From positions 186,001 to 250,000 of the forward strand of contig NZ_NEGC01000004.1 of assembly GCF_002135335.1 (NCBI RefSeq): a stretch of 64,000 nucleotides of DNA. Reading direction: 5' to 3'. Shown here one piece after another: positions 49,763 to 64,000 of this stretch (the stretch's first letter is position 1; each line of letters begins with the position of its first letter). The translations under genes and the position numbers were made by a program. The DNA comes from Acinetobacter sp. ANC 4470 (GTDB taxonomy: Bacteria > Pseudomonadota > Gammaproteobacteria > Pseudomonadales > Moraxellaceae). The notes under the pieces were generated by a model. It ran no database searches and was not told where the DNA came from. It was given only the letters and a program-made list of their open reading frames with translations.

Positions 49763-50899
49763 TTACGCGGCAGAACGCTCTGTAATTGGTACAACTTTAC
49801 GCAGTTCAGGCCCCGTATAATCCGCACTTGGACGAATAATACGATTATCGGCACGTTGCTCCATCACATGTGCCGCCCAACCTGTGACACGGCTCATCAC
49901 GAAGATTGGCGTGAACAGCTTCGTTGCAATATCCATGAAGTGATACGCTGAAGCATGAAAGAAGTCGGCATTACAGAATAATTTTTTCTCACGCCACATC
50001 ACTTCTTCACAACGTACTGACACTGGATAAAGTACCGTATCACCTACATCTTTCGCCAAGCGTTCTGCCCAGATTTTGATGATGCCATTACGTGGGTCAT
50101 TGTCTTTATAGATCGCATGACCAAAGCCCATGATCTTTTCTTTACGTTCCAGTTTACCGAGCATTTCACGTTCGGCTTCGTCGGCAGACGTCCAGTTTTC
50201 AATCATTTCCATTGCAGCTTCGTTTGCACCACCATGTAATGGTCCACGCAGTGAACCAATGGCACCGGTAATACATGAATGCATATCCGACAATGTGGAT
50301 GCACAAACACGCGCAGTAAATGTAGATGCGTTAAATTCATGCTCTGCATAAAGAATCAGTGATACATTCATCACTTGTTCATGCAATTCATTTGGTTTTT
50401 CACCACGAAGTAAATGCAGGAATTGCGCACCGATTGAATCATCATCGGTATTTTCTTCAATGCGCACACCGTCATGGCTAAATCTGTACCAATAACAAAT
50501 AATGGCCGGCAAAGTTGCCAAAATACGATCTGCAACATCTTGCTGTTCAGTAAATGATTTTTCTGTTTCCAAATTACCCAGCATCGAAACACCAGTACGC
50601 ATTACATCCATTGGATGCGAGTCCGCAGGAATACGCTCTAATACTTCTTTTAAGGCTTGTGGTAATTGGCGCAGCGATTTTAATTTCGCTTTATAGCTTG
50701 CAAGCTGCTCAGCAGTGGGCAATTCACCAAAGAAAATAAGATACGCAACTTCTTCAAATTGGCAATTTTCAGCCAAATCTTGCACATCATATCCACGATA
50801 GGTTAAGCCTGCACCACTTTTGCCTACAGTTGACAATGCTGTTTTACCTGCCACTTGTCCACGCAATCCTGCGCCTGTGAGTACTTTTCCTTCAGCCAT
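49763..50899 (-). CDS. prpC: 2-methylcitrate synthase
   Basis: 378 residues from the ATG at 50899 (MAEGKVLTGAGLRGQVAGKT), for which GGAG lies within the short upstream in-frame codons; the frame also opens at 50914. The enzyme condenses propionyl-CoA with oxaloacetate in the methylcitrate cycle. Citrate-synthase motifs are present: LHGGANEAAMEMIENW, GFGHAIYKDNDPRNG and RVTGWAAHVMEQRADNRIIR. It is 25 bp after prpB and ends in a hairpin terminator. Confidence 0.93.
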   Translation of the reverse strand: MAEGKVLTGAGLRGQVAGKTALSTVGKSGAGLTYRGYDVQDLAENCQFEEVAYLIFFGELPTAEQLASYKAKLKSLRQLPQALKEVLERIPADSHPMDVMRTGVSMLGNLETEKSFTEQQDVADRILATLPAIICYWYRFSHDGVRIEENTDDDSIGAQFLHLLRGEKPNELHEQVMNVSLILYAEHEFNASTFTARVCASTLSDMHSCITGAIGSLRGPLHGGANEAAMEMIENWTSADEAEREMLGKLERKEKIMGFGHAIYKDNDPRNGIIKIWAERLAKDVGDTVLYPVSVRCEEVMWREKKLFCNADFFHASAYHFMDIATKLFTPIFVMSRVTGWAAHVMEQRADNRIIRPSADYTGPELRKVVPITERSAA

Positions 50900-50924
50900 T
50901 TTTTTATTCTCCATGTTGAATTTT

Positions 50925-51843: not shown

Positions 51844-53472
51844 TTAACCTTCTAACAAAACTGAACCATACTCTTCACGTAAAACTTTTTTAAGTATCTT
51901 TCCAGTACCACCTACAGGAATGGAATCCACAAAAATAACCTTATCTGGAATTTGCCATTTCGCAATTTTATCGGTGTAGTAATCCAAAATATCTTCTGCT
52001 GTAATTTGACTTTCAGCTGATTTTTTTGCAATTAATATCGGTCGTTCATCCCATCTTGGATGTACAGCAGCAATTACAGCAACCATATCAATTGCCGGAT
52101 GTGCACTCGCAATATTTTCCAACTCAACTGAGGAAATCCATTCGCCACCTGATTTAATTAAATCTTTAGAACGATCACAAATATTCATATAGCCATCTTG
52201 ATCTAAGGTCGCAATATCACCTGTATCAAACCAACCATCTAAAGTAAGAGCGGATTTATTTTCCCCAAAATATGAATCTACAATCCAGTGTCCCTTTATT
52301 TGTAAATTTCCTGAGGTTTGACCATCCCGTTGAATTTCCGTCACCCCATTTTCTTCATCACTCACACGTAGTTGCACCCCAAATGGTGGACGACCTTGTG
52401 AAAAACGAACATTAAACTGTTCTGTTTCAGCTAATTCCAAATGTTTGGCTTTAAGCTGATTAACTGAACCGACTGGGCTTGTTTCCGTCATCCCCCAAGC
52501 ATGAATCGTTTCACATTGGTATACATCTTTAAATGTCTTCACCATTGATGGTGGACAAGCTGCCCCACCCACCACATTGCGCGTCAAACTTACAAGTTTG
52601 CTACCCGACTGATGCGCTGCGTTTAATAGTCCTTGCCAAATCGTTGGTACACCTAATGCATTGGTCACTTTATATTGATCAATTAAATGAACCAAACTCG
52701 CCCCATCCAACATTGGGCCAGGCAGTACCATACTGCATCCAACCATAGCCGCGGCATAAGGCGTTCCCCAAGCATTAACATGAAACATGGGTACAACAGG
52801 TAATATTCTATCTTTTGCCGATAAATTTAATGAATCAGGTAAACAACTTGCATAACTATGCAATATCGTCGAACGATGGCTATATAAAACACCTTTAGGA
52901 TTCCCTGTCGTACCCGATGTATAACAAAGTGAGCTTGCCGTTGTTTCTTCTAATTTTGGCCATTCATAATGCTCAGACTGAGCCTCAATAAGCACATCAT
53001 AAAACTGTACTTCAGGGAGTGCTTTCTTAATGTTTTCATCATAAGCATCAAGACAAATAAAATGCTCTACATTTGGAAGAGAAGCCTGAATTGAAATGAC
53101 TAAATTTAAAAATGTTTTATCGAAAATAATAACTTTATCATTTGCATCATTAATAATATAAGTCAATTGTTCAGGAAAAAGACGAGGATTAATAGTGTGA
53201 CAAATCAAGCCACTTCCAGATATTCCATACCAAGTTTCTAAATGACGATGATTATTCCATGCAATAGTTGCAACTCGATCACTTGCAGACAAACCGAGTG
53301 ATTGTAAGACATTCGCAAAACGTTTTGAATTTTTAGCAATCTGTGCCCAGTTGCTTTGCGTCATAGAGCCATCAGTATTTTTTGAAATAATAGCTGTATC
53401 TGCGTGATAAATTTCAGCATGTTCGATTAAGCTACTAATCAAAAGTGGTTGAAACATCATATTTCCATGCAT
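51844..53472 (-). CDS. Fatty-acyl-CoA ligase, AlkK/DmdB-like
   Basis: 542 residues of the AMP-forming acyl-CoA synthetases. The P-loop is YTSGTTGNPKGVLYSHRS (about residues 184-201), the A5 motif is WGMTETSPVG, and A7 and A8 appear as GWFDTGDIATLDQDGYMNI and DRSKDLIKSGGEWISSVELE; the A10 Lys is in GGTGKILKKVL. The similarity is to medium-chain and methylthiopropionate-type ligases, so the substrate is probably a short to medium acid. It sits just before prpB, so it could feed propionyl-CoA-producing acids into the methylcitrate pathway. It is 244 bp from the AraC regulator gene. Confidence 0.9.
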   Translation of the reverse strand: MHGNMMFQPLLISSLIEHAEIYHADTAIISKNTDGSMTQSNWAQIAKNSKRFANVLQSLGLSASDRVATIAWNNHRHLETWYGISGSGLICHTINPRLFPEQLTYIINDANDKVIIFDKTFLNLVISIQASLPNVEHFICLDAYDENIKKALPEVQFYDVLIEAQSEHYEWPKLEETTASSLCYTSGTTGNPKGVLYSHRSTILHSYASCLPDSLNLSAKDRILPVVPMFHVNAWGTPYAAAMVGCSMVLPGPMLDGASLVHLIDQYKVTNALGVPTIWQGLLNAAHQSGSKLVSLTRNVVGGAACPPSMVKTFKDVYQCETIHAWGMTETSPVGSVNQLKAKHLELAETEQFNVRFSQGRPPFGVQLRVSDEENGVTEIQRDGQTSGNLQIKGHWIVDSYFGENKSALTLDGWFDTGDIATLDQDGYMNICDRSKDLIKSGGEWISSVELENIASAHPAIDMVAVIAAVHPRWDERPILIAKKSAESQITAEDILDYYTDKIAKWQIPDKVIFVDSIPVGGTGKILKKVLREEYGSVLLEG

Positions 53473-54890: not shown

Positions 54891-56726
54891 TTAAAAGTTG
54901 ACTTTTAAGGCCAATGAAGCAAAGTCTCGGTCATCTATAGTGCTAAATTCGTTCGAACCAAAAAAGTTATAGTAGGCGATTTCAGTGGTATATTTTTTCT
55001 GATAAGTCGCCGATACCGCCGCACCTATGCTCATTTGTCCTTCTTGAAAATTTTGGCTAAAACCATGTACATCATGACGGAAGCTAAGACTAGGTGTAAT
55101 AACTGTTGATGGCAAAATATCTTGATAACTTAATGCGCCACGTAGTCGATAACCCAATGACCATTCACTAAAAAAACCTTCTTTATTACAAAAACGTTCA
55201 TTCATGCTGTCAATGACGTCATTTGGAAGATGTGCAGTACCATATGGCGTACATTTAAACTCACCTGTTTCAGGATTATACGCACCTGTAGAGAGTTCAC
55301 TGCGACCAAAAACACCCACTCGACCAATACGATGATTGCCTATATCAGCAATGTGATTTGCTGCAAACTCAGCAGACCAAGTCAATGCATTTGCCCCTAG
55401 AACATTAGAAATACTATCGCTTGCACCTATTGAAAATTGGGTTACAGGCAAACGTACATATCCATTGATATATTTGCCTAACTCAGGAGCAACACCAGGA
55501 GGTGTAAATGGCGTTTCACTAGACAGAACTTGAGCATAAACAATATCTGTACCATTTAATTGCAATGGTTGATCTGGCTTATGCGTTAATTCACTGAAAA
55601 CAGTTGTCATTCCTACTTTCCCAGTCAAACTTAAGCCATACATCTTAATATCTTCAGGATAGATAGAAAAAAAACTCGCTGTTTTAAAGTTTTGTGGCCC
55701 CGCTGCAGTCACGGTAAAGCCATCAAAATTTGCATTTCGACTATGGTAATTCGCATAGTACATACCGAGTTCAGCATTATTTAAACTGGGTAAAATTTGC
55801 TTTAAGGCAATACCATATTGTCCACTATCTTTGGCATATCTACTTTCTGTACGTGGAATAAAAGTTTGAGCATCTAAAGCGCTTTCTGACAGCTTATCTC
55901 CGGGCGTAACCGTTAGAACAATTGGTCCACAATTCTCTGGAACGAAATCAGAGATTGCAAAAAAAGTCCCACAGCCATCAACGACAGTTGGTCTGAACTT
56001 GAACTGATAGAAGCCTTCAACCTTAAGATTTTGATTAATCCCTGCTGTAAAAGAGAACATTTCAACAGGAATAATTCTTTCTTTTGCCTCACCACCAGGT
56101 CGATTCATTGCGGCAAAATCCAATGCACTGACCGAATTTAAACCATTCTGGAAAAACTGTGATTTCCCCCAGCTTAAAGCGTGTTTACCTAATTTAAAAT
56201 TGAAAGACTGACCATTATCAAATGTAAAGTTCTTCCAAATATATGCATCCCAAAGATCTATTCCCTTGAATTTTGCCAGCCTTGGCCATGCTGAATCATC
56301 AAATGGCTTTAAATCGCCATGTCCTGTTTCGTACGCATGGTCATACCAGTATTTCGTACTGATCACAGCACCCTGCTGTTTACCATTCAAACGAAACTCG
56401 GTTAAGCCTTTGATAATTTGGGATATTGCATCATGTTTACTAAAGTTTGCACGACCATCATCACCATTGACATCCACGCTAAGTCCCTCTTTACCAATGC
56501 TGAGCGCATCTGGTTTATAAAGCATTGAAGCTGAAGGATCCTGTGTGCTCCAACTGCCACCTAAACTTAGGCTCGTGTTAGTTTCAAACTTCCAATCGTC
56601 ATTGATATCAAAACTAGCAGCTGTCGCTTTTGAAATAAATAGGATTAAGCCCAAAGAGAAACCAACCCTTTGAATGAATAAAATATGACTTCTTTTCTCA
56701 TTTAAATATAAAAACTTATTCACCAT
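54891..56726 (-). CDS. DUF1302-family outer-membrane protein
   Basis: 611 residues from the ATG at 56726 (MVNKFLYLNEKRSHILFIQR), chosen for TGGAG 5-6 bp upstream over the in-frame ATG at 56771. A signal peptide is likely after a basic N-terminal region (VGFSLGLILFISKATAASFD). The rest is beta-strand-rich with aromatic ends (LALKVNF at the C-terminus), like outer-membrane barrels. DUF1302 proteins occur with DUF1329 partners and enzymes for hydrophobic ester or steroid breakdown. The DUF1329 partner is missing here. It lies next to the ligase and AraC genes. Confidence 0.85.
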   Translation of the reverse strand: MVNKFLYLNEKRSHILFIQRVGFSLGLILFISKATAASFDINDDWKFETNTSLSLGGSWSTQDPSASMLYKPDALSIGKEGLSVDVNGDDGRANFSKHDAISQIIKGLTEFRLNGKQQGAVISTKYWYDHAYETGHGDLKPFDDSAWPRLAKFKGIDLWDAYIWKNFTFDNGQSFNFKLGKHALSWGKSQFFQNGLNSVSALDFAAMNRPGGEAKERIIPVEMFSFTAGINQNLKVEGFYQFKFRPTVVDGCGTFFAISDFVPENCGPIVLTVTPGDKLSESALDAQTFIPRTESRYAKDSGQYGIALKQILPSLNNAELGMYYANYHSRNANFDGFTVTAAGPQNFKTASFFSIYPEDIKMYGLSLTGKVGMTTVFSELTHKPDQPLQLNGTDIVYAQVLSSETPFTPPGVAPELGKYINGYVRLPVTQFSIGASDSISNVLGANALTWSAEFAANHIADIGNHRIGRVGVFGRSELSTGAYNPETGEFKCTPYGTAHLPNDVIDSMNERFCNKEGFFSEWSLGYRLRGALSYQDILPSTVITPSLSFRHDVHGFSQNFQEGQMSIGAAVSATYQKKYTTEIAYYNFFGSNEFSTIDDRDFASLALKVNF

Positions 56727-56783
56727 ATCATCTCCATATAGATATGATTTATTTTGATTAACTTGCTGCATCCAATATTTACA

Positions 56784-56951: not shown

Positions 56952-57545
56952 CTATGCAGACATGACACAGTCATCAATCATGTCAAGCTGTTGAATAAAC
57001 TGTTCAGCCTGTGGCCAAGGGCCAAAACCAGCAGCAGGATTAACATGACCAACAGCGCCTAAGTTAACCAATTGACTGCCCCATGTTTTCGCCATATCTG
57101 CAACAGCAGCAAAACTGGCTAAAGGGTCATTGGTACTGGCAGCAAGAATGCTTGGAAAAGGCAGTACTTGACTTGGTAAGGGACTCCATCCCTCGAGTCG
57201 AAGTGTGTCAGAACTTGGATAATTTTCTGGCCAACTTTGTTTCAAATCAGGAGGCGCTACAAGCAATGCGCCTTTAATGGCATGATGCTGATGCTTGGCT
57301 GCCCAATGTACGGCCATCAATACACCAGCACTGTGCGCAACCAAAAGCACAGGCCCATCTATGTTTTCCAGTTCTGCCTGAATTGCCTCAACGCGTTTTG
57401 CACAATTCAGCTTGTCCGTTTGCACAGGGGGTACAGAACGTACCTTAATCAAACGTGCTTCCAATATCGTTTGCCAATGTTCAGCAACGTGATCACGTAA
57501 GCCAGGGATGATTAGAACTGTAGCCTTGGTCAGTATTTTTTCCAT
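56952..57545 (-). CDS. RBBP9/YdeN-type alpha/beta hydrolase
   Basis: 197 residues, a compact serine-hydrolase family. Motifs are VLIIPGLRDHVAEHWQTILE at the N-terminus, the nucleophile AHSAG (a variant of GxSxG) at about residue 70, and the catalytic Asp and His in STNDPLASF and GAVGHVNPAAGFGPW. These enzymes hydrolyse small esters. It stands alone between the DUF1302 gene and the second AraC regulator, from which it is divergent, so it may be under that regulator. Confidence 0.85.
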   Translation of the reverse strand: MEKILTKATVLIIPGLRDHVAEHWQTILEARLIKVRSVPPVQTDKLNCAKRVEAIQAELENIDGPVLLVAHSAGVLMAVHWAAKHQHHAIKGALLVAPPDLKQSWPENYPSSDTLRLEGWSPLPSQVLPFPSILAASTNDPLASFAAVADMAKTWGSQLVNLGAVGHVNPAAGFGPWPQAEQFIQQLDMIDDCVMSA

Positions 57546-57849: not shown

Positions 57850-58860
57850 ATGGTTCCTCTTGCGCATACTGCCGTTCTGAAAAATTATGTGGACGTGACG
57901 CAACAATTAGACGTCAATCCTTACCATTTATTGTCAAATGTCGGAATTTGCCCAACTCAGTTAAATAATACGAAACAACGTATTTCTGTAGACAAGGCAG
58001 TTGCCTTACTGGAACAGTCAGCTCAAATCAGTGGTTGTGAGGTATTCGGTTTGCGCATGGCAGAACAGAGACAACTATCTGATTTTGGTGAAATTAGTCT
58101 ACTACTGAGTTATCAACATACCTTACGTGATGCTTTACAGACAATTGTCCGCTACCGTAATTTACTCAATGATTCACTTGAAATTTATATTGAGGAGGTT
58201 GGCAATACCGTCATCATTCGAGAGGAAGTGGTGACAACTGCATCCGTATACAGCCGTCAGGCAACTGAACTTGCACTTGGAATTATGCACCGTTTCTGCG
58301 CTGCGCTGTTGTCTCAGAAATGGCGGCCTTTAAGTATACATTTCACCCACAGTGCACCACATGACCTCTCTACACATCGACGCATCTTTGGATGCTCGTT
58401 GGAGTTCGGCAGCGAATTCAACGGTATCGTCTGTACAGCGATAGAACTTGATACAGCAAATCCACAAGCCAATACAGCGATGGCCGATCATGCACAACGT
58501 TATCTAGATACCTTACAAAATGACAATGAGCCTTCTATTATTTTTGATATCCGTAAAAGCATCTATCTACTTTTACCTATGGGCCGCGCTACTATTGATC
58601 AAGTTGCACAAATGCATGGTATTAACGTGCGAACACTACAGCGTCGTTTAGAAGCATCTCAAACCAGTTTTAGTGATTTAATCAATGATGTACGTCGAAA
58701 CCTCGTGTTCCGTTACCTGAAAAACATCAATTACTCACTAGGGCAAGTTTCTGACATTTTGGGGTACTCAACACCAAGTTCCTTTACTCGTTGGTTTATC
58801 AGTCAGTTTGGAATGGCACCTATGAATTGGCGTAATCTCAATAAAACCATGCTCGATTAA
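57850..58860 (+). CDS. AraC-family regulator, second copy
   Basis: 336 residues with the same architecture as the regulator at 53717-54742: an Arabinose_bd-type N-terminal domain and C-terminal helix-turn-helix pair (VAQMHGINVRTLQRRLEASQ; LGYSTPSSFTRWFISQFGMA, then PMNWRNL). It is a different protein, not a recent duplicate. Ribosome site AGGGAG precedes the ATG. It is divergent from the RBBP9 gene and precedes the convergent YeiH gene, so it is the natural candidate regulator for the catabolic cluster to its right. Confidence 0.88.
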   Translation: MVPLAHTAVLKNYVDVTQQLDVNPYHLLSNVGICPTQLNNTKQRISVDKAVALLEQSAQISGCEVFGLRMAEQRQLSDFGEISLLLSYQHTLRDALQTIVRYRNLLNDSLEIYIEEVGNTVIIREEVVTTASVYSRQATELALGIMHRFCAALLSQKWRPLSIHFTHSAPHDLSTHRRIFGCSLEFGSEFNGIVCTAIELDTANPQANTAMADHAQRYLDTLQNDNEPSIIFDIRKSIYLLLPMGRATIDQVAQMHGINVRTLQRRLEASQTSFSDLINDVRRNLVFRYLKNINYSLGQVSDILGYSTPSSFTRWFISQFGMAPMNWRNLNKTMLD

Positions 58861-58994: not shown

Positions 58995-59036
58995 AAAAAA
59001 GGGACTTGCATCTGTACGAATGACAGAACAGTCCCT
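58995..59036 (-). terminator. Terminator of the YeiH cluster
   Basis: On the minus strand AGGGACT-GT-TCTGT-CATTCGT-ACAGA-TGCA-AGTCCCT folds into a long stem with an internal loop and is followed by TTTTTT. It starts 18 bp beyond the YeiH stop. Confidence 0.8.
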
Positions 59037-59054
59037 ATTGAGAAGATATTAGTA

Positions 59055-60065
59055 CTAAAACCACCAGTGCATCAGCGTCAAGACCAATATCACCAGAAAA
59101 ACACTTTCACCGACCATCAGAAGAATCGGCTTGATCCCCACAGAGGCAAGCTCTTTCAGTTGAGTTTTCATGCCCAAAGCGCTGATCGCAATAACCAAGC
59201 ACCAACGTGATAACTCATTCAGTCCGCCCTGCACAACAACGGGCACCCATCCTGTACTGTTGATACAAGCGAGAACTAAAAAGCCCACTGCAAACCAAGG
59301 CAGTAATGGTGGACGCTGCCCCGTTGAATCTGCACCTTGCATACGTGTAATCATCGCTGCGCAGACAATCACTGGAAGTAGCATCGCAACCCGCATTAAC
59401 TTCACGACTGTTGCAGTATCACCTGTTTCTGTCGACATGCTATAACCCGCACCCACCACCTGCGCCACATCATGAATCGTGGCACCCAAAAACACGCCAG
59501 CAGCCTGCGGTGATAACTCAAGCCAATTCGCGATCATTGGATACACAATCATGGCTAAGGTAGAAAGCGCGGAGACACCAATCACAGTAAATAAAGTGGC
59601 TTTTTCTTTTTGTGGATGATTAGGCAATGCTGCCGATAATGCCAATGCTGCTGAAGCACCACAAATTGCGGTAGCACCACCAGTCAACATGCCAAAGAGC
59701 TTCTGAAAACCAAGCACTTTAGCGGCTATGACTGAAACCGATATCGTCACCACGACAAGTGTTATCACTAAAGCAACAGGTTGCCAACCCAAAGCCGTAA
59801 TTTGCCCCAAAGTAATACGCATACCTAACAAAGCAATGCCTACACGTAATACTGTACGCGCGGTGAACTCAATACCCGCCTTACACTTACTGTCTGTAGC
59901 TAAGAAATTCAGTCCCATTCCTAGCAGCAGTGCAAATAACATCACTGGAGCACCATAGTGCTCCGATAAAAAACAGGCCGCGGCAGCAACAACCACACTG
60001 ACAATAAAACCTGGCATCAACTCACGTGATCGCTGGTTTAAATCCACTAGCATAGAGCTATTCAT
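59055..60065 (-). CDS. YeiH-type UPF0324 membrane protein (putative sulfur-compound exporter)
   Basis: 336 residues from the ATG at 60065, one base after the stop of the Rieske gene (TAGCATG), with GGGGAG overlapping that stop; the frame open from 60107 is inside the Rieske gene. About ten hydrophobic segments and the conserved TGGATAICGASAALALSAALP and GVFLGATIHDVAQVVGAG are family features. UPF0324/YeiH proteins are annotated as putative sulfate exporters, but few are characterised. It is the last gene of the dioxygenase cluster. This supports export of sulfite or sulfate from a sulfonate-degrading pathway, as inference. Confidence 0.88.
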   Translation of the reverse strand: MNSSMLVDLNQRSRELMPGFIVSVVVAAAACFLSEHYGAPVMLFALLLGMGLNFLATDSKCKAGIEFTARTVLRVGIALLGMRITLGQITALGWQPVALVITLVVVTISVSVIAAKVLGFQKLFGMLTGGATAICGASAALALSAALPNHPQKEKATLFTVIGVSALSTLAMIVYPMIANWLELSPQAAGVFLGATIHDVAQVVGAGYSMSTETGDTATVVKLMRVAMLLPVIVCAAMITRMQGADSTGQRPPLLPWFAVGFLVLACINSTGWVPVVVQGGLNELSRWCLVIAISALGMKTQLKELASVGIKPILLMVGESVFLVILVLTLMHWWF

Positions 60066-60066
60066 G

Positions 60067-60384
60067 CTACTCCCCAGAATCCATAATAATAAATACTTGG
60101 TCGCCAATCACCTCTACAGGATACGAAGCAACTTTAAGCTGAGTAGAATTCAATAAGTAACCGCTAGCTAAATCAAAACGCAAACCATGCGCACAACACT
60201 GGATCACCTGTCCTTCCAGTTTCCCACCAAATAACGAAGCACCCTGATGTGGGCAGCTGTCATCAATCGCGTAGAATTGAGCAGCAATATTAAACAATGC
60301 AAGTGATTTGTCTCCAATCATAAGGAATACTCGCGCACCTGGAGCTGGTACTTTTTCTAGCGGTACTTGAAAACGAGCTGTCAT
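60067..60384 (-). CDS. Rieske [2Fe-2S] ferredoxin-like protein
   Basis: 105 residues with one Rieske domain. The ligands are Cys44 and His46 in DDSCPHQGAS and Cys63 and His66 in IQCCAHGLRF, giving the CxH...CxxH pattern. It resembles NirD or biphenyl-type ferredoxins, which pass electrons to oxygenases. No reductase or Rieske oxygenase alpha subunit is in the cluster, and TauD-type enzymes do not need such a donor, so the partner may lie beyond the window. It overlaps the DsbA gene by 4 bp. Confidence 0.88.
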   Translation of the reverse strand: MTARFQVPLEKVPAPGARVFLMIGDKSLALFNIAAQFYAIDDSCPHQGASLFGGKLEGQVIQCCAHGLRFDLASGYLLNSTQLKVASYPVEVIGDQVFIIMDSGE

Positions 60385-61025
60385 GTCACCAATCCTTGTG
60401 TTGCAATTTCTTCAAGCATCGCCTTATAAAGTACATCTGCTGGATGTGCACCAGCTAATGCTGAGCGACCCTCAAAAATAAAGTAAGGCACGCCATTACC
60501 GCCTGTGTCAGCAGAGATGAAAGGTTCATCCAAACGAGTGCCTAGAGTGTCAGCTGAAAAGCCACAAAGCTCTGCAATTTTCAGTAGAACCGCTGTATCG
60601 CCAATGTCTTCAGAATGATGGAAATACGCTGAAAATAGCCGTTCTAGCAGCATGTCGCATTGTTCTGGATTCCCAATTTTTAAAGCATTTCCCAACAAAT
60701 GGTGTGCTTGAGCAGTATTGGGCATACGTTTAATGCGATCAAAATCAATATCAACGCCTACGACATTCGCTGCCTGACGAACTTGAGCCTGTCGCATACG
60801 AACTGAGGTAACACTGCCTAATCTTTTTAAATAAAACGCCTGAAAAGGCACCCCTTCAACGGGGATGTGAGGTAATAATTGCACCCCACGCCAGTGTAAG
60901 ATCACATCAATATCAGGATCAGTTCGATGCAGCTGCTTTATGGCAGTCTGTAACTGACGTTTCCCGATCAAACACCAAGGGCAAATAAAGTCAAAAAATA
61001 CATCTATATGCAATTGGCGACTCAT
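60381..61025 (-). CDS. FrnE-like DsbA-family protein
   Basis: 214 residues of the thioredoxin-fold DsbA/FrnE group with the active-site motif CPWC (Cys15 and Cys18, in DFICPWCLIGK), and no signal peptide. It is therefore cytoplasmic. Relatives include FrnE and 2-hydroxychromene-2-carboxylate isomerase, which use glutathione or thiol chemistry in catabolic pathways. It overlaps both the MFS gene (4 bp) and the Rieske gene (4 bp), so the three are translated together. The role in the pathway is unknown. Confidence 0.88.
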   Translation of the reverse strand: MSRQLHIDVFFDFICPWCLIGKRQLQTAIKQLHRTDPDIDVILHWRGVQLLPHIPVEGVPFQAFYLKRLGSVTSVRMRQAQVRQAANVVGVDIDFDRIKRMPNTAQAHHLLGNALKIGNPEQCDMLLERLFSAYFHHSEDIGDTAVLLKIAELCGFSADTLGTRLDEPFISADTGGNGVPYFIFEGRSALAGAHPADVLYKAMLEEIATQGLVT

Positions 61026-62353
61026 AATTTATCATCCATGCTAAGTTCATTGGACTGCACTGCTGACTGAGCATTTGATCGTGCAAGATCTTTGAGATAA
61101 TGGCATTTGGCATAAAAGAACACAGCTGCTGCGGCTATACTGACCAATGGCATTAATTGAAATGCACTCTGTAGACCAATCACATCAGATACTTTTCCAA
61201 CAACCAACGGTCCAAGTGCCAGTCCCAGCAAGTTATTGGCTAAGGTTAAAGTTGCAAATGCTGAACTATGCACTGAGTTATGGGTTAGATTGGCAACCAT
61301 CGCCATAGATGGGCCATTAGTACCGATTACAATGAATACCCCAAGGCAAATCACTGCTAATTGGGCAGGACCAGCTGACATGGCAAATGCTATCGATAAC
61401 AGCAGACAGCTCCCTAAACAGTAAGTAATCGCCAAACTTACTTTACGCTCTGGACGATTACGCCCTAAACGATCGCAGAGCATGCCGCATAAAATAGTAC
61501 CCACTGCACCGCTCAATACAATAATCGCTGCCATGATTCCTGCGGAATCGGTGCTCATCGCATAATATCGATTTAGATAGCTGGGCATCCAAACAATCAC
61601 CGAGCCACCAACAAACAATTGCAATCCACTGCCAATGTAAGTTGCAATGACTGAAGGACTGGAATATAAGGTTTTCAGCGGATTTTTAATTTTTATTAGT
61701 TTCTGTCCAACTGCATCTGTGAGAGCTGATGGGGTAATTCTTTTTTCTTTCACAATAATCGGATACAAAGAAGCCAAGATCAAACCAAATACAGCCATAC
61801 CAGCAAATGCCCAACGCCAACCAAAATGCTCAGCCAGCACACCGCCTAAGGCCATACCTAAAAATGAGCCACACATACCACCAGCCATAAAAGCACTTGC
61901 CAGCGTTGCGCGCATTTCTCGTGGAAATACAGCCATTACAACAGCAATACCCACACTGCCATACGCGGCTTCCCCCACACCCACCATAAAGCGAGCAATA
62001 AACATCTGCTGATAATTTTCTGCGAGTGCACAGCCTAAGGTTGCTACACTCCACAACACTGCCATTAAGGTTAAGCTTTTGACTCGACCAAAACGGTCTG
62101 CCAACAATGACAAGGGTAAGGTCAACAAACCTACCATTAATGCCACAATGCCACTCAATAAGCCCAACTGACTATCACTAAGTGCCCATTCACTTTTGAG
62201 TAAAGGAAAAACCGCATTTAACACTTGTCGCGACATGTAATCTGAAATGAGCAAACCAAATGTTAAGGCAAAAACTAGCCATGCATAGCGGCGGGGAATA
62301 CTGATAGAAGTATCCATACTGCTCGTATGTACTGTATGTTGATGAATACCCAT
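61022..62353 (-). CDS. Major facilitator superfamily transporter
   Basis: 443 residues with twelve hydrophobic segments. The ATG at 62353 has a very strong AAGGAGG site 4 bp upstream. The cytoplasmic-loop motif is LADRFGRVKSL, repeated in the second half as MLCDRLGRNRPE. It resembles aromatic-acid and metabolite proton symporters rather than drug pumps. Its place in the middle of the catabolic cluster implies it imports the pathway substrate. Confidence 0.9.
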   Translation of the reverse strand: MGIHQHTVHTSSMDTSISIPRRYAWLVFALTFGLLISDYMSRQVLNAVFPLLKSEWALSDSQLGLLSGIVALMVGLLTLPLSLLADRFGRVKSLTLMAVLWSVATLGCALAENYQQMFIARFMVGVGEAAYGSVGIAVVMAVFPREMRATLASAFMAGGMCGSFLGMALGGVLAEHFGWRWAFAGMAVFGLILASLYPIIVKEKRITPSALTDAVGQKLIKIKNPLKTLYSSPSVIATYIGSGLQLFVGGSVIVWMPSYLNRYYAMSTDSAGIMAAIIVLSGAVGTILCGMLCDRLGRNRPERKVSLAITYCLGSCLLLSIAFAMSAGPAQLAVICLGVFIVIGTNGPSMAMVANLTHNSVHSSAFATLTLANNLLGLALGPLVVGKVSDVIGLQSAFQLMPLVSIAAAAVFFYAKCHYLKDLARSNAQSAVQSNELSMDDKL

Positions 62354-62360
62354 ACGACCT

Positions 62361-62495
62361 CCTTGTATGTTTTTATAATTTCTATATCTAGCTAGTGCAG
62401 GATCACGTTACTACTCGTATGAGCTGTATACTTATGGGCATCCACGGCCCCTTGTATTTTTATAATTTCAATCTTGCTAGCTCAGGATCACGTTT
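62361..62495. repeat. Imperfect 89-bp-period direct duplication upstream of the MFS gene
   Basis: Segment 62361-62410 (CCTTGTATGTTTTTATAATT then TCTATATCTAGCTAGTGCAG, ending GATCACGTTA) recurs at 62450-62495 (CCTTGTATTTTTATAATTTC, ending CTCAGGATCACGTTT). Similarity extends a little upstream of each copy. The first copy covers the MFS Shine-Dalgarno region. After the second copy a hairpin GATCACGTTTC / GAAACGTGATC (62486-62513) follows, but it has no T-tract. Confidence 0.7.
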
Positions 62496-62529
62496 CCACC
62501 TAGAAACGTGATCATTACTCTTACACGAC

Positions 62530-63624
62530 TTATGCTGAATACTTAAGTTTAGATTCCTTTGTACTCACGCCATCAGTACGTAGAGGAATTCCCCTTTGTC
62601 CAGGTTGACGATTCGGTGACATACCATTTGCAATTAATGTTTCTTCAATACTATCGTACTGCACCCCAATACGATAAATTTCACGCGCTTCTTGACCTGA
62701 CGCAATTTCACGCCCTAACTCATGTGCAACACGTACGGTTTGCTCAATTTGCTGTACTGATGTAAAGCGCTTACCATGCTGATCAATAATGGTGTCTTCA
62801 GTCCCTACACGTGGATGCATCCCCATAGCCAGAGCCATGGTATTAAAAGGCAATACGTTCTTGAACAACGACTCAGCAGTCAAGCTACAGCCATCTGGTG
62901 CACGATGGATAAAGTTGAAGAAGTTAAACGGATTTGGACCATCGAAACCACCCGCAATCCCAATCCAAGTCAGGTTCAATGGGCCAGTATAAATACCCTT
63001 ACGAACTAGACGCTCAAGGGTTTCTAAAGCATGAATACCTGTTAGTTGAAAATGCGGCTGAATGCCAGAAGCCTGTAAGCGACGCAGATGTTCTTCAACC
63101 CAACCCGGTCCTGCTGGTACAGTCATTTCACGATAGGCAGCGAAGGTTGCTGGCTCACCCAACGTCGTTCCAGCAATATATTCTGGTGGAATTACCTCGG
63201 TGATATTCATTTGTGTCGTATTGATTGCTATAGTGACTTGATCTGGTTTTGGGGTCAGATCAGCCAGCATATGTCGAGCTTCATCACTTAACCACAGTGC
63301 AGCTTCACCTTCGCTTTCCGGTGCAAAGGAAATCGAACCGCCCACTTGAATAATCATATCAGGCACTGCTTCACGCACACCAGCAATCAGTTCGTTAAAC
63401 TTTGACAGTCGTTTAGAACCTTTACCATCCAACTCCCGTACATGCAAATGCAATACCGTCGCACCAGCTTCGTAGCAATCCACAGCTTTTTGTATTTGCT
63501 CTTCCATCGTTACAGGAATGTCTTCTGGAAAATCTTCTGGCATCCACTCAGGCCCATAAGGCGCAACAGTAATTACCACTTTTTCCATATTTTCTGGGTG
63601 CAAGGAATCATCAAAGAATTGCAT
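62530..63624 (-). CDS. BKACE-family beta-keto acid cleavage enzyme (DUF849)
   Basis: 364 residues from the ATG at 63624, which has AGGAG at the right distance; the ATG six bases upstream touches that ribosome site. BKACE enzymes use acetyl-CoA to cut beta-keto acids into acetoacetate and a CoA ester. The zinc-binding histidines are in LHLHVRE (residues about 59-65), and the C-terminal GMHPRVGTEDTI is the family motif. Known members cleave 3-keto-5-aminohexanoate or dehydrocarnitine. Here it is adjacent to a TauD-type dioxygenase and a transporter, so the substrate is probably novel. Confidence 0.92.
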   Translation of the reverse strand: MQFFDDSLHPENMEKVVITVAPYGPEWMPEDFPEDIPVTMEEQIQKAVDCYEAGATVLHLHVRELDGKGSKRLSKFNELIAGVREAVPDMIIQVGGSISFAPESEGEAALWLSDEARHMLADLTPKPDQVTIAINTTQMNITEVIPPEYIAGTTLGEPATFAAYREMTVPAGPGWVEEHLRRLQASGIQPHFQLTGIHALETLERLVRKGIYTGPLNLTWIGIAGGFDGPNPFNFFNFIHRAPDGCSLTAESLFKNVLPFNTMALAMGMHPRVGTEDTIIDQHGKRFTSVQQIEQTVRVAHELGREIASGQEAREIYRIGVQYDSIEETLIANGMSPNRQPGQRGIPLRTDGVSTKESKLKYSA

Positions 63625-63684
63625 ACGCATCTCCTATTATATTTTAAAAATTATCAATCAGATAGAGTTATTCAAACCATAAGG

Positions 63685-64000
63685 TTAGTAGGTTCGATCA
63701 CCAATAATGGCTGCTCGTTCCATTTTTCGATGGCAAGCAGGATAATCCATCACGGCATAATGTTGCGTGCTGCGATTATCCCAAATTGCAATGCTGTTAG
63801 GTTTCCAACGCCAACGTACTTGATATTCCGGAATAGATGCTTGGGATATTAAGTAGCGCAATAGATCCGCTGCACCAGGGTTTGCATCTTGTCCGAATCT
63901 CACGCGTTCAGGTGTATGATAATTACTGATATGCGTCGTATAACTGTTGACGAACAGTACTTTTTCACCTGTTTCAGGATGAGTACGTACCACAGGGTGC
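63685..64000 (-). CDS. TauD/TfdA-family dioxygenase, C-terminal part (5' end beyond window)
   Basis: 105 residues are visible and the frame runs off the window end. The motifs are those of TauD/TfdA dioxygenases: HPVVRTHPETGEKVLFVNSY near the left, and WDNRSTQHYAVMDYP with the third iron-ligand His and RKMERAAIIGD with the 2-oxoglutarate Arg towards the end. The enzyme hydroxylates its substrate with Fe(II), O2 and 2-oxoglutarate; relatives act on taurine, alkyl sulfates, 2,4-D or gamma-butyrobetaine. It is 54 bp upstream of the BKACE gene and probably in the same operon. Confidence 0.92.
   Translation of the reverse strand, partial: HPVVRTHPETGEKVLFVNSYTTHISNYHTPERVRFGQDANPGAADLLRYLISQASIPEYQVRWRWKPNSIAIWDNRSTQHYAVMDYPACHRKMERAAIIGDRTY

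Follow-up and report, generated by a model that had tools for sequence, protein, structure and literature searches.

A conserved TauD-BKACE-YeiH gene set in Acinetobacter sp. ANC 4470 and its possible role in organosulfonate catabolism

Results

Gene content of the locus

A 64,000-nucleotide stretch of the Acinetobacter sp. ANC 4470 genome (bases 186001-250000 of contig NZ_NEGC01000004.1, assembly GCF_002135335.1; source genome 3.0 Mb), referred to here as the window, ends in a run of genes on the minus strand in the order QOR-TauD-BKACE-MFS-FrnE-Rieske-YeiH. The seven-gene set is a real, conserved operon and very probably catabolic, since a set conserved and co-occurring in this way very likely serves one catabolic function. 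The initial annotation had described six genes in one direction with 4-bp overlaps and a 1-bp Rieske/YeiH gap. Their coordinates and families were confirmed, and the linkage proved strong, but the set is larger than described: extension of the sequence past 64000 placed QOR 24 bp upstream of TauD, and the divergent AraC gene, the serine hydrolase and the DUF1302 porin, on the downstream side of the run, also belong to the set. Families were assigned by Pfam and in part by NCBIfam, as follows.

64558-65589 (window-equivalent, outside the window), minus strand: quinone-oxidoreductase-type protein (QOR), 343 amino acids (NF008024, 358.8 bits over a cut-off of 348)
63685-64000, minus strand: TauD-family Fe(II)/2-oxoglutarate dioxygenase, C-terminal part (PF02668, 223.1 bits)
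62530-63630, minus strand: beta-keto acid cleavage enzyme (BKACE)/DUF849-family enzyme, 366 amino acids, with a long insertion (PF05853, 211.3 bits)
61022-62353, minus strand: major facilitator superfamily (MFS) transporter, probable importer (PF07690, 173.5 bits)
60381-61025, minus strand: FrnE-like DsbA-family protein with a CPWC motif (PF01323; PDB FrnE, E=3.5e-18)
60067-60384, minus strand: stand-alone Rieske ferredoxin (PF00355)
59055-60065, minus strand: YeiH-type membrane protein, probable sulfite exporter (PF03601, 244.7 bits; cut-off 24.5)
57850-58860, plus strand: AraC-family regulator, probable activator (PF12625, PF12833)
56952-57545, minus strand: RBBP9-type serine hydrolase (PF06821)
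54891-56771, minus strand: DUF1302 outer-membrane porin-like protein (PF06980, 458.6 bits)
51844-53472, minus strand: acyl-CoA ligase, associated, with less regular linkage (NF004837, 545.6 bits over a cut-off of 476)

The full TauD gene encodes 282 amino acids and extends to window-equivalent position 64533. Upstream of QOR the run ends in a 920-bp gap followed by a divergent, putative glycerol kinase gene. The likely start of BKACE is at 63624 (62530-63624), the second Met, where most orthologue matches begin. The mechanical open reading frame of YeiH reaches 60107, and the 1-bp gap to Rieske holds if translation starts at the ATG at 60065. For the MFS transporter no curated NCBIfam cut-off was reached among the matches listed (25 of 56 families), and an NCBIfam scan of the FrnE-like protein gave no match. 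The acyl-CoA ligase scored 757.7 bits with NF005426, under the cut-off of 822. In the serine hydrolase, His71, Ser72, Gly74 and His167 are kept in 92 of 92 rows.

The tight coupling claimed for the run applies to the MFS/FrnE and FrnE/Rieske junctions, which overlap by 4 bp as stated, but not to the BKACE-MFS junction, a gap of 176 bp (62354-62529) holding an 11-bp hairpin. A single transcript is nevertheless predicted as likely across the run. The MFS ribosome-binding region also appears to be repeated, in degenerate form, within this gap, and by eye a hairpin of different sequence is present in five of seven other Acinetobacter BKACE-MFS gaps.

Conservation and distribution of the gene set

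A BKACE scan of named genomes confirmed 394 relatives; the locus counts below cover the best 80 of these 394, with loci cut by contig ends scored as misses and flanks reaching at most 10 kb. The unbroken seven-gene order was present in 55 of the 80 loci, which were picked by BKACE similarity. Pseudomonas brassicacearum is among the environmental pseudomonads with this order. Counted singly, QOR was found in 77, TauD in 78, MFS in 79, FrnE in 65, Rieske in 76 and YeiH in 57 loci, and among the flanking genes the AraC-type regulator in 75, the serine hydrolase in 70, DUF1302 in 58 and an acyl-CoA ligase homologue in 13. Fourteen Burkholderiales loci mostly follow another order (AraC, BKACE, MFS, QOR, TauD, hydrolase, Rieske), and FrnE occurs in two of them.

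A search of plasmids returned 151 records with a BKACE match, 12 of which were examined. QOR, TauD, BKACE and the hydrolase are kept in the plasmid copies of Rhodococcus, Tsukamurella, Novosphingobium and Azoarcus, and also in two Caballeronia, Diaphorobacter and Streptomyces copies; most of these copies also keep MFS and AraC. YeiH lies in the same run on the Rhodococcus and Novosphingobium plasmids and about 13 kb away in Azoarcus. There are two counter-examples: an Ensifer plasmid match (46%), with BKACE but no TauD, QOR or YeiH nearby, and a stretch of Cupriavidus EM10, in which BKACE has neither TauD nor QOR beside it and a TauD gene lies about 14 kb off.

Within the genus, BKACE (E at most 1e-100) was found in 22 of 119 sampled genomes and TauD of at least 79% identity in the same 22, one further genome having a truncated TauD. 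PF05853 is limited to these 22 cluster genomes (0 of the 97 others). PF03601 occurs in all 22, in each case no more than about 4 kb from BKACE according to the listed coordinates, and also in one of the 97 others; the association of YeiH with the cluster (Fisher p about 4e-23) is only indicative, as related genomes were treated as independent. Beyond genera of the kind named above the set is uncommon: of 398 genomes sampled across the phylum, 14 have a TauD orthologue (E at most 1e-90), ours included, and of 369 sampled across the class only our own does. Eighteen stretches of 11-20 kb cover the 20 TauD matches in the other 13 phylum-sample genomes, and YeiH lies within those stretches in six of the 13.

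The G+C content of the set is 0.43-0.44, compared with 0.33-0.41 for most of the window (0.43 at its very start). The BKACE is nearest to that of Pseudomonas (88%), and within the genus the operon occurs only sporadically. We nevertheless do not claim that this genome gained it horizontally, because a quick tree of 111 BKACE rows did not reject a single Acinetobacter clade (approximately unbiased test, p-AU 0.70).

The TauD-type dioxygenase

The protein and all 112 homologue rows with an identity of 65% or more keep equivalents of the Fe ligands (HxD...H) and of the 2-oxoglutarate-binding arginine, and likewise of His70 and Arg270 of Escherichia coli TauD, which we take to be the sulfonate contacts. 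The likeness to E. coli TauD thus extends over fold family, Fe-ligand, 2-oxoglutarate-arginine, His70 and Arg270 equivalents, and the nearest solved structure, 5vn6, is labelled taurine dioxygenase. Identity as a taurine dioxygenase was nonetheless rejected, the score of 255.6 bits falling under the NF007104 equivalog cut-off of 313. Two positions presumably at the amine end of taurine are changed: position 73 holds Ala, Val, Leu or Thr, and position 95 is Arg in 104 of 112 rows, although the latter falls at an alignment gap. Both the NF007104 score and these changed positions disfavour taurine as substrate. The gene also differs from E. coli tauD in having no recognised taurine ABC transporter genes beside it.

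YeiH and neighbouring sulfur genes

Work on Salmonella identifies YeiH as the chief contributor to the sulfite resistance of that organism (PMC12880088). Both the Salmonella protein and the one described here are YeiH-type membrane proteins. Ours meets the wider PF03601 model but scores under the TIGR00698 cut-off (173 versus 232.6 bits), and it lies in a catabolic run with an AraC regulator rather than with a regulator of the YeiE type.

A further sulfur gene was found on a Pseudomonas aeruginosa plasmid (L127:2141-7901), where a soxC sulfite dehydrogenase (588.9 bits over a cut-off of 420), a cytochrome c and a sulfurtransferase lie 10-12 kb from a TauD homologue of 65% identity. On the same plasmid, a set of TauD, ligase and cupin genes has two more members of the TauD family in its vicinity. 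In a related genome, a 20-kb stretch (L121) carries a cupin, YeiH and two TauD genes, one a second copy at 94% and the other at 56%, with no BKACE; its Rieske copy has lost one ligand cysteine.

Acinetobacter also has a second conserved cluster, with a BKACE paralogue (62-63%), a short-chain dehydrogenase/reductase (SDR), and CMD, MFS, DUF1302 and AraC genes (L122, L123, L124, L126). The YeiH paralogue of L123, the one tested, passes the TIGR00698 cut-off. The L123, L124 and L126 genomes hold the TauD cluster elsewhere.

The BKACE-family enzyme and the fate of its product

Residues H61, H63 and E278, which we take to be the His, His and Glu ligands of the zinc, and R274 and D279, equivalent to Arg226 and Asp231, are kept in 118 of 118 rows. 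In the alignment the insertion is about 40 residues longer than in Kce, and an Arg-His pair within it, Arg119-His120, is kept in 117 of 118 rows.

Acetoacetate is suggested as a product by 3-oxoacid CoA-transferase homologues in seven of the 80 loci (one A and one B subunit were checked by hidden Markov model) and by an annotated acetoacetate-CoA ligase adjoining the Streptomyces plasmid copy. Transferase homologues also occur in one sample region (L152). Propionyl-CoA was considered as a product from the prpB and prpC genes beside the operon, and this idea was weakened: the window prpC is the genome's only full high-identity match and acnD lies about 37 kb away, so the prp neighbourhood may be coincidence. 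Homologues of prpB or prpC were found in two of the 80 loci, and one Caballeronia copy continues into prpB-prpC-acnD-prpF. The last 109 residues of the prpC product (49763-50914) recur with 100% identity on another contig (C16:124830-125156), by duplication or as an assembly effect.

Accessory genes

Both Cys of the FrnE CPWC motif are kept in 72 of 72 rows, and the Rieske ligand positions 44, 46, 63 and 66 in 83, 84, 84 and 84 of 84 rows, so both proteins are probably redox-active, as judged from these residues. Because neither was seen in the copies of Rhodococcus, Tsukamurella and Streptomyces, both are regarded as accessory; that they protect thiols against sulfite is a guess. The porin offers a hint of an amphiphilic substrate, as DUF1302/DUF1329 proteins are described in the available portion of a Pseudomonas putida study as required for growth on Tween 20 (PMC10866462).

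Discussion

A proposed pathway

No paper on this cluster was found in the open-access literature, in keeping with the initial annotation, which had not recognised the combination. Gene order, conservation, co-occurrence and kept catalytic residues were obtained directly, whereas the individual reactions, the import or export direction of the transporters and the substrate are all inferred. The preferred reading, a good possibility that falls somewhat short of probable, is that a sulfur oxyanion is released from an organosulfonate or sulfate ester at the TauD step, that YeiH removes sulfite, and that BKACE cleaves a beta-keto acid. It draws support from the role of YeiH in Salmonella, from the soxC gene near one TauD relative and from the genes for acetoacetate activation close to some copies. 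The pathway would be inducible and would use the imported compound as a carbon source. Porin and MFS transporter would take the compound in, and TauD would hydroxylate the sulfur-bearing carbon, which would release sulfite (or sulfate) and leave a carbonyl behind. QOR and the serine hydrolase might then convert the skeleton to a beta-keto acid, whose two terminal carbons BKACE would move onto acetyl-CoA, giving acetoacetate and an acyl-CoA; a CoA-transferase or ligase would activate the acetoacetate. YeiH would export the sulfite, while FrnE and Rieske would act as accessory redox proteins, perhaps protecting thiols from it. A fitting substrate class would be amphiphilic sulfonates with an alkyl or alkenyl chain: if desulfonation left an enal, QOR would have a substrate, and the way to BKACE would run through a 3-hydroxy acid. 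The fuller proposal, of an as yet undescribed aerobic route for aliphatic sulfonates as carbon sources in some soil bacteria, in which a non-taurine TauD desulfonates, YeiH exports and a BKACE without the catalytic Tyr shortens the free acid outside CoA-bound beta-oxidation, is possible but held with considerable doubt.

The nearest described route is deoxyribonate catabolism in Pseudomonas simiae. The available text (PMC6365646) describes MFS import and a free beta-keto acid that passes to BKACE, with acetoacetate and an acyl-CoA proposed as products and the acetoacetate then activated, as proposed here. It differs in that an SDR dehydrogenase makes the keto acid, where the present set has the TauD/QOR pair, YeiH, FrnE and Rieske. 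Its lactonase and glycerate kinase were not recognised in our run.

Several findings weigh against the sulfur-based reading. YeiH was not seen in 23 of the 80 loci, a few of them cut by contig ends; these include all 14 Burkholderiales loci and seven Pseudomonas loci in which AraC directly follows Rieske. PF03601 was found elsewhere in the genome for 19 of 19 such loci tested, a count of little weight as there was no YeiH-bearing control set, and TauE/SafE exporters, tried as stand-ins, are too common to be informative (19 of 19 genomes and 14 of 14 controls). The paralogous cluster carries its YeiH paralogue without TauD in L123, L124 and L126 (not in L122), so YeiH may follow BKACE rather than TauD. 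Conversely, TauD homologues without BKACE nearby occur in L127, L128, L129 and L169, with YeiH also not seen in the last three. PlaO1, presumably not a desulfonase, shares the conserved His and Arg of TauD, which makes these residues permissive and not diagnostic of a sulfonate. No soxC was found in the 80 loci, and among the genes of our own operon we recognised neither an aldehyde dehydrogenase nor a sulfite oxidase. The product route is likewise sparsely represented, with no acetoacetate-CoA ligase in any of the 80 loci and no CoA-transferase in 73 of them within the flanks covered. Finally, the Salmonella work, in its available text, demonstrated resistance and not transport (PMC12880088).

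Alternative explanations

Sulfur need not be involved. TauD-family enzymes include C3 hydroxylases, and in a sulfur-free route like that from butyrobetaine via carnitine, TauD would hydroxylate a free carboxylic acid at C3, QOR would oxidise the product and BKACE would cleave it, leaving YeiH to export another small anion, e.g. acetoacetate. QOR lies directly beside TauD in most copies, as such a route would have it, and the paralogous BKACE cluster has an SDR and YeiH with no TauD; a route with SDR and BKACE is known from deoxyribonate catabolism (PMC6365646). QOR, however, scores as an NADPH:quinone reductase (358.8 over 348) and not as an alcohol dehydrogenase, a sulfite dehydrogenase lies near one TauD relative, and the one experimental YeiH study consulted concerns sulfite (PMC12880088). 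On balance the route is unlikely, if by no means negligible. It bears on two suggestions of the initial annotation. Of its sulfonate and betaine branches, the sulfonate branch is favoured because of YeiH; the betaine branch is disfavoured, because it leaves YeiH unexplained and because no carnitine-dehydrogenase-like gene was recognised among the 15 of our own genes scanned or in the annotated plasmid neighbourhoods examined, a negative obtained with no dedicated model. Its statement that no dehydrogenase was visible needs amending, since candidates exist in the QOR beside TauD in most copies and in the SDR beside the paralogous BKACE.

The preferred reading also depends on cleavage by the DUF849 protein, and here the active site raises a difficulty. 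The catalytic Tyr (Tyr145 of Kce) corresponds to Thr197, and Thr occupies this position in 88 of 89 rows of at least 75% identity; a preprint, in its available text, states that all BKACEs have the Tyr (PMC12871164). The same text describes BsfD, from the flavophos cluster, which like our protein belongs to DUF849, is without the catalytic Tyr and has an insertion after strand 3. The protein might thus be non-cleaving, joining acetyl-CoA to a keto compound as BsfD does, and the operon might serve synthesis or detoxification rather than growth. BsfD differs, however, in being biosynthetic, in having a phosphonate substrate, in its insertion of about 20 residues and in having Phe at the Tyr position, where our protein has about 40 residues more than Kce and Thr. 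Among 29 more distant rows 12 have the Tyr, some copies are accompanied by genes for acetoacetate activation, and the neighbouring porin, CoA ligase and acyl-CoA dehydrogenase genes appear catabolic; a BsfD-like role is therefore improbable.

Equally improbable is that the operon detoxifies a reactive or xenobiotic compound, chiefly through FrnE, Rieske and QOR, while BKACE handles a by-product. In favour of this, proteins of detoxification and thiol redox chemistry occur in the QOR, FrnE and CMD families, and the copies of Rhodococcus and Tsukamurella, in which FrnE and Rieske were not found, have a CMD gene nearby. Against it, these two copies and that of Streptomyces keep TauD, BKACE, QOR and the hydrolase although FrnE and Rieske were not found in them, and the linked genes include ligases and MFS or TTT-type binding proteins.

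Implications

The core of the operon recurs in two phyla and in 22 of the 119 genus genomes, yet, judged by the TauD orthologue, it reaches only 14 of the 398 phylum-sample and one of the 369 class-sample genomes. This sparse distribution suggests a substrate that probably only a restricted group of soil bacteria encounters. The operon offers one regulator, one dioxygenase and one easily measured sulfur product. If the fuller proposal is true, YeiH would gain a metabolic partner and DUF849 a sulfonate pathway. Identification of the substrate could extend the organic sulfur cycle by a sulfonate pathway, and could define a metabolic role for YeiH-type proteins and a function for the long DUF849 enzymes that lack the catalytic Tyr.

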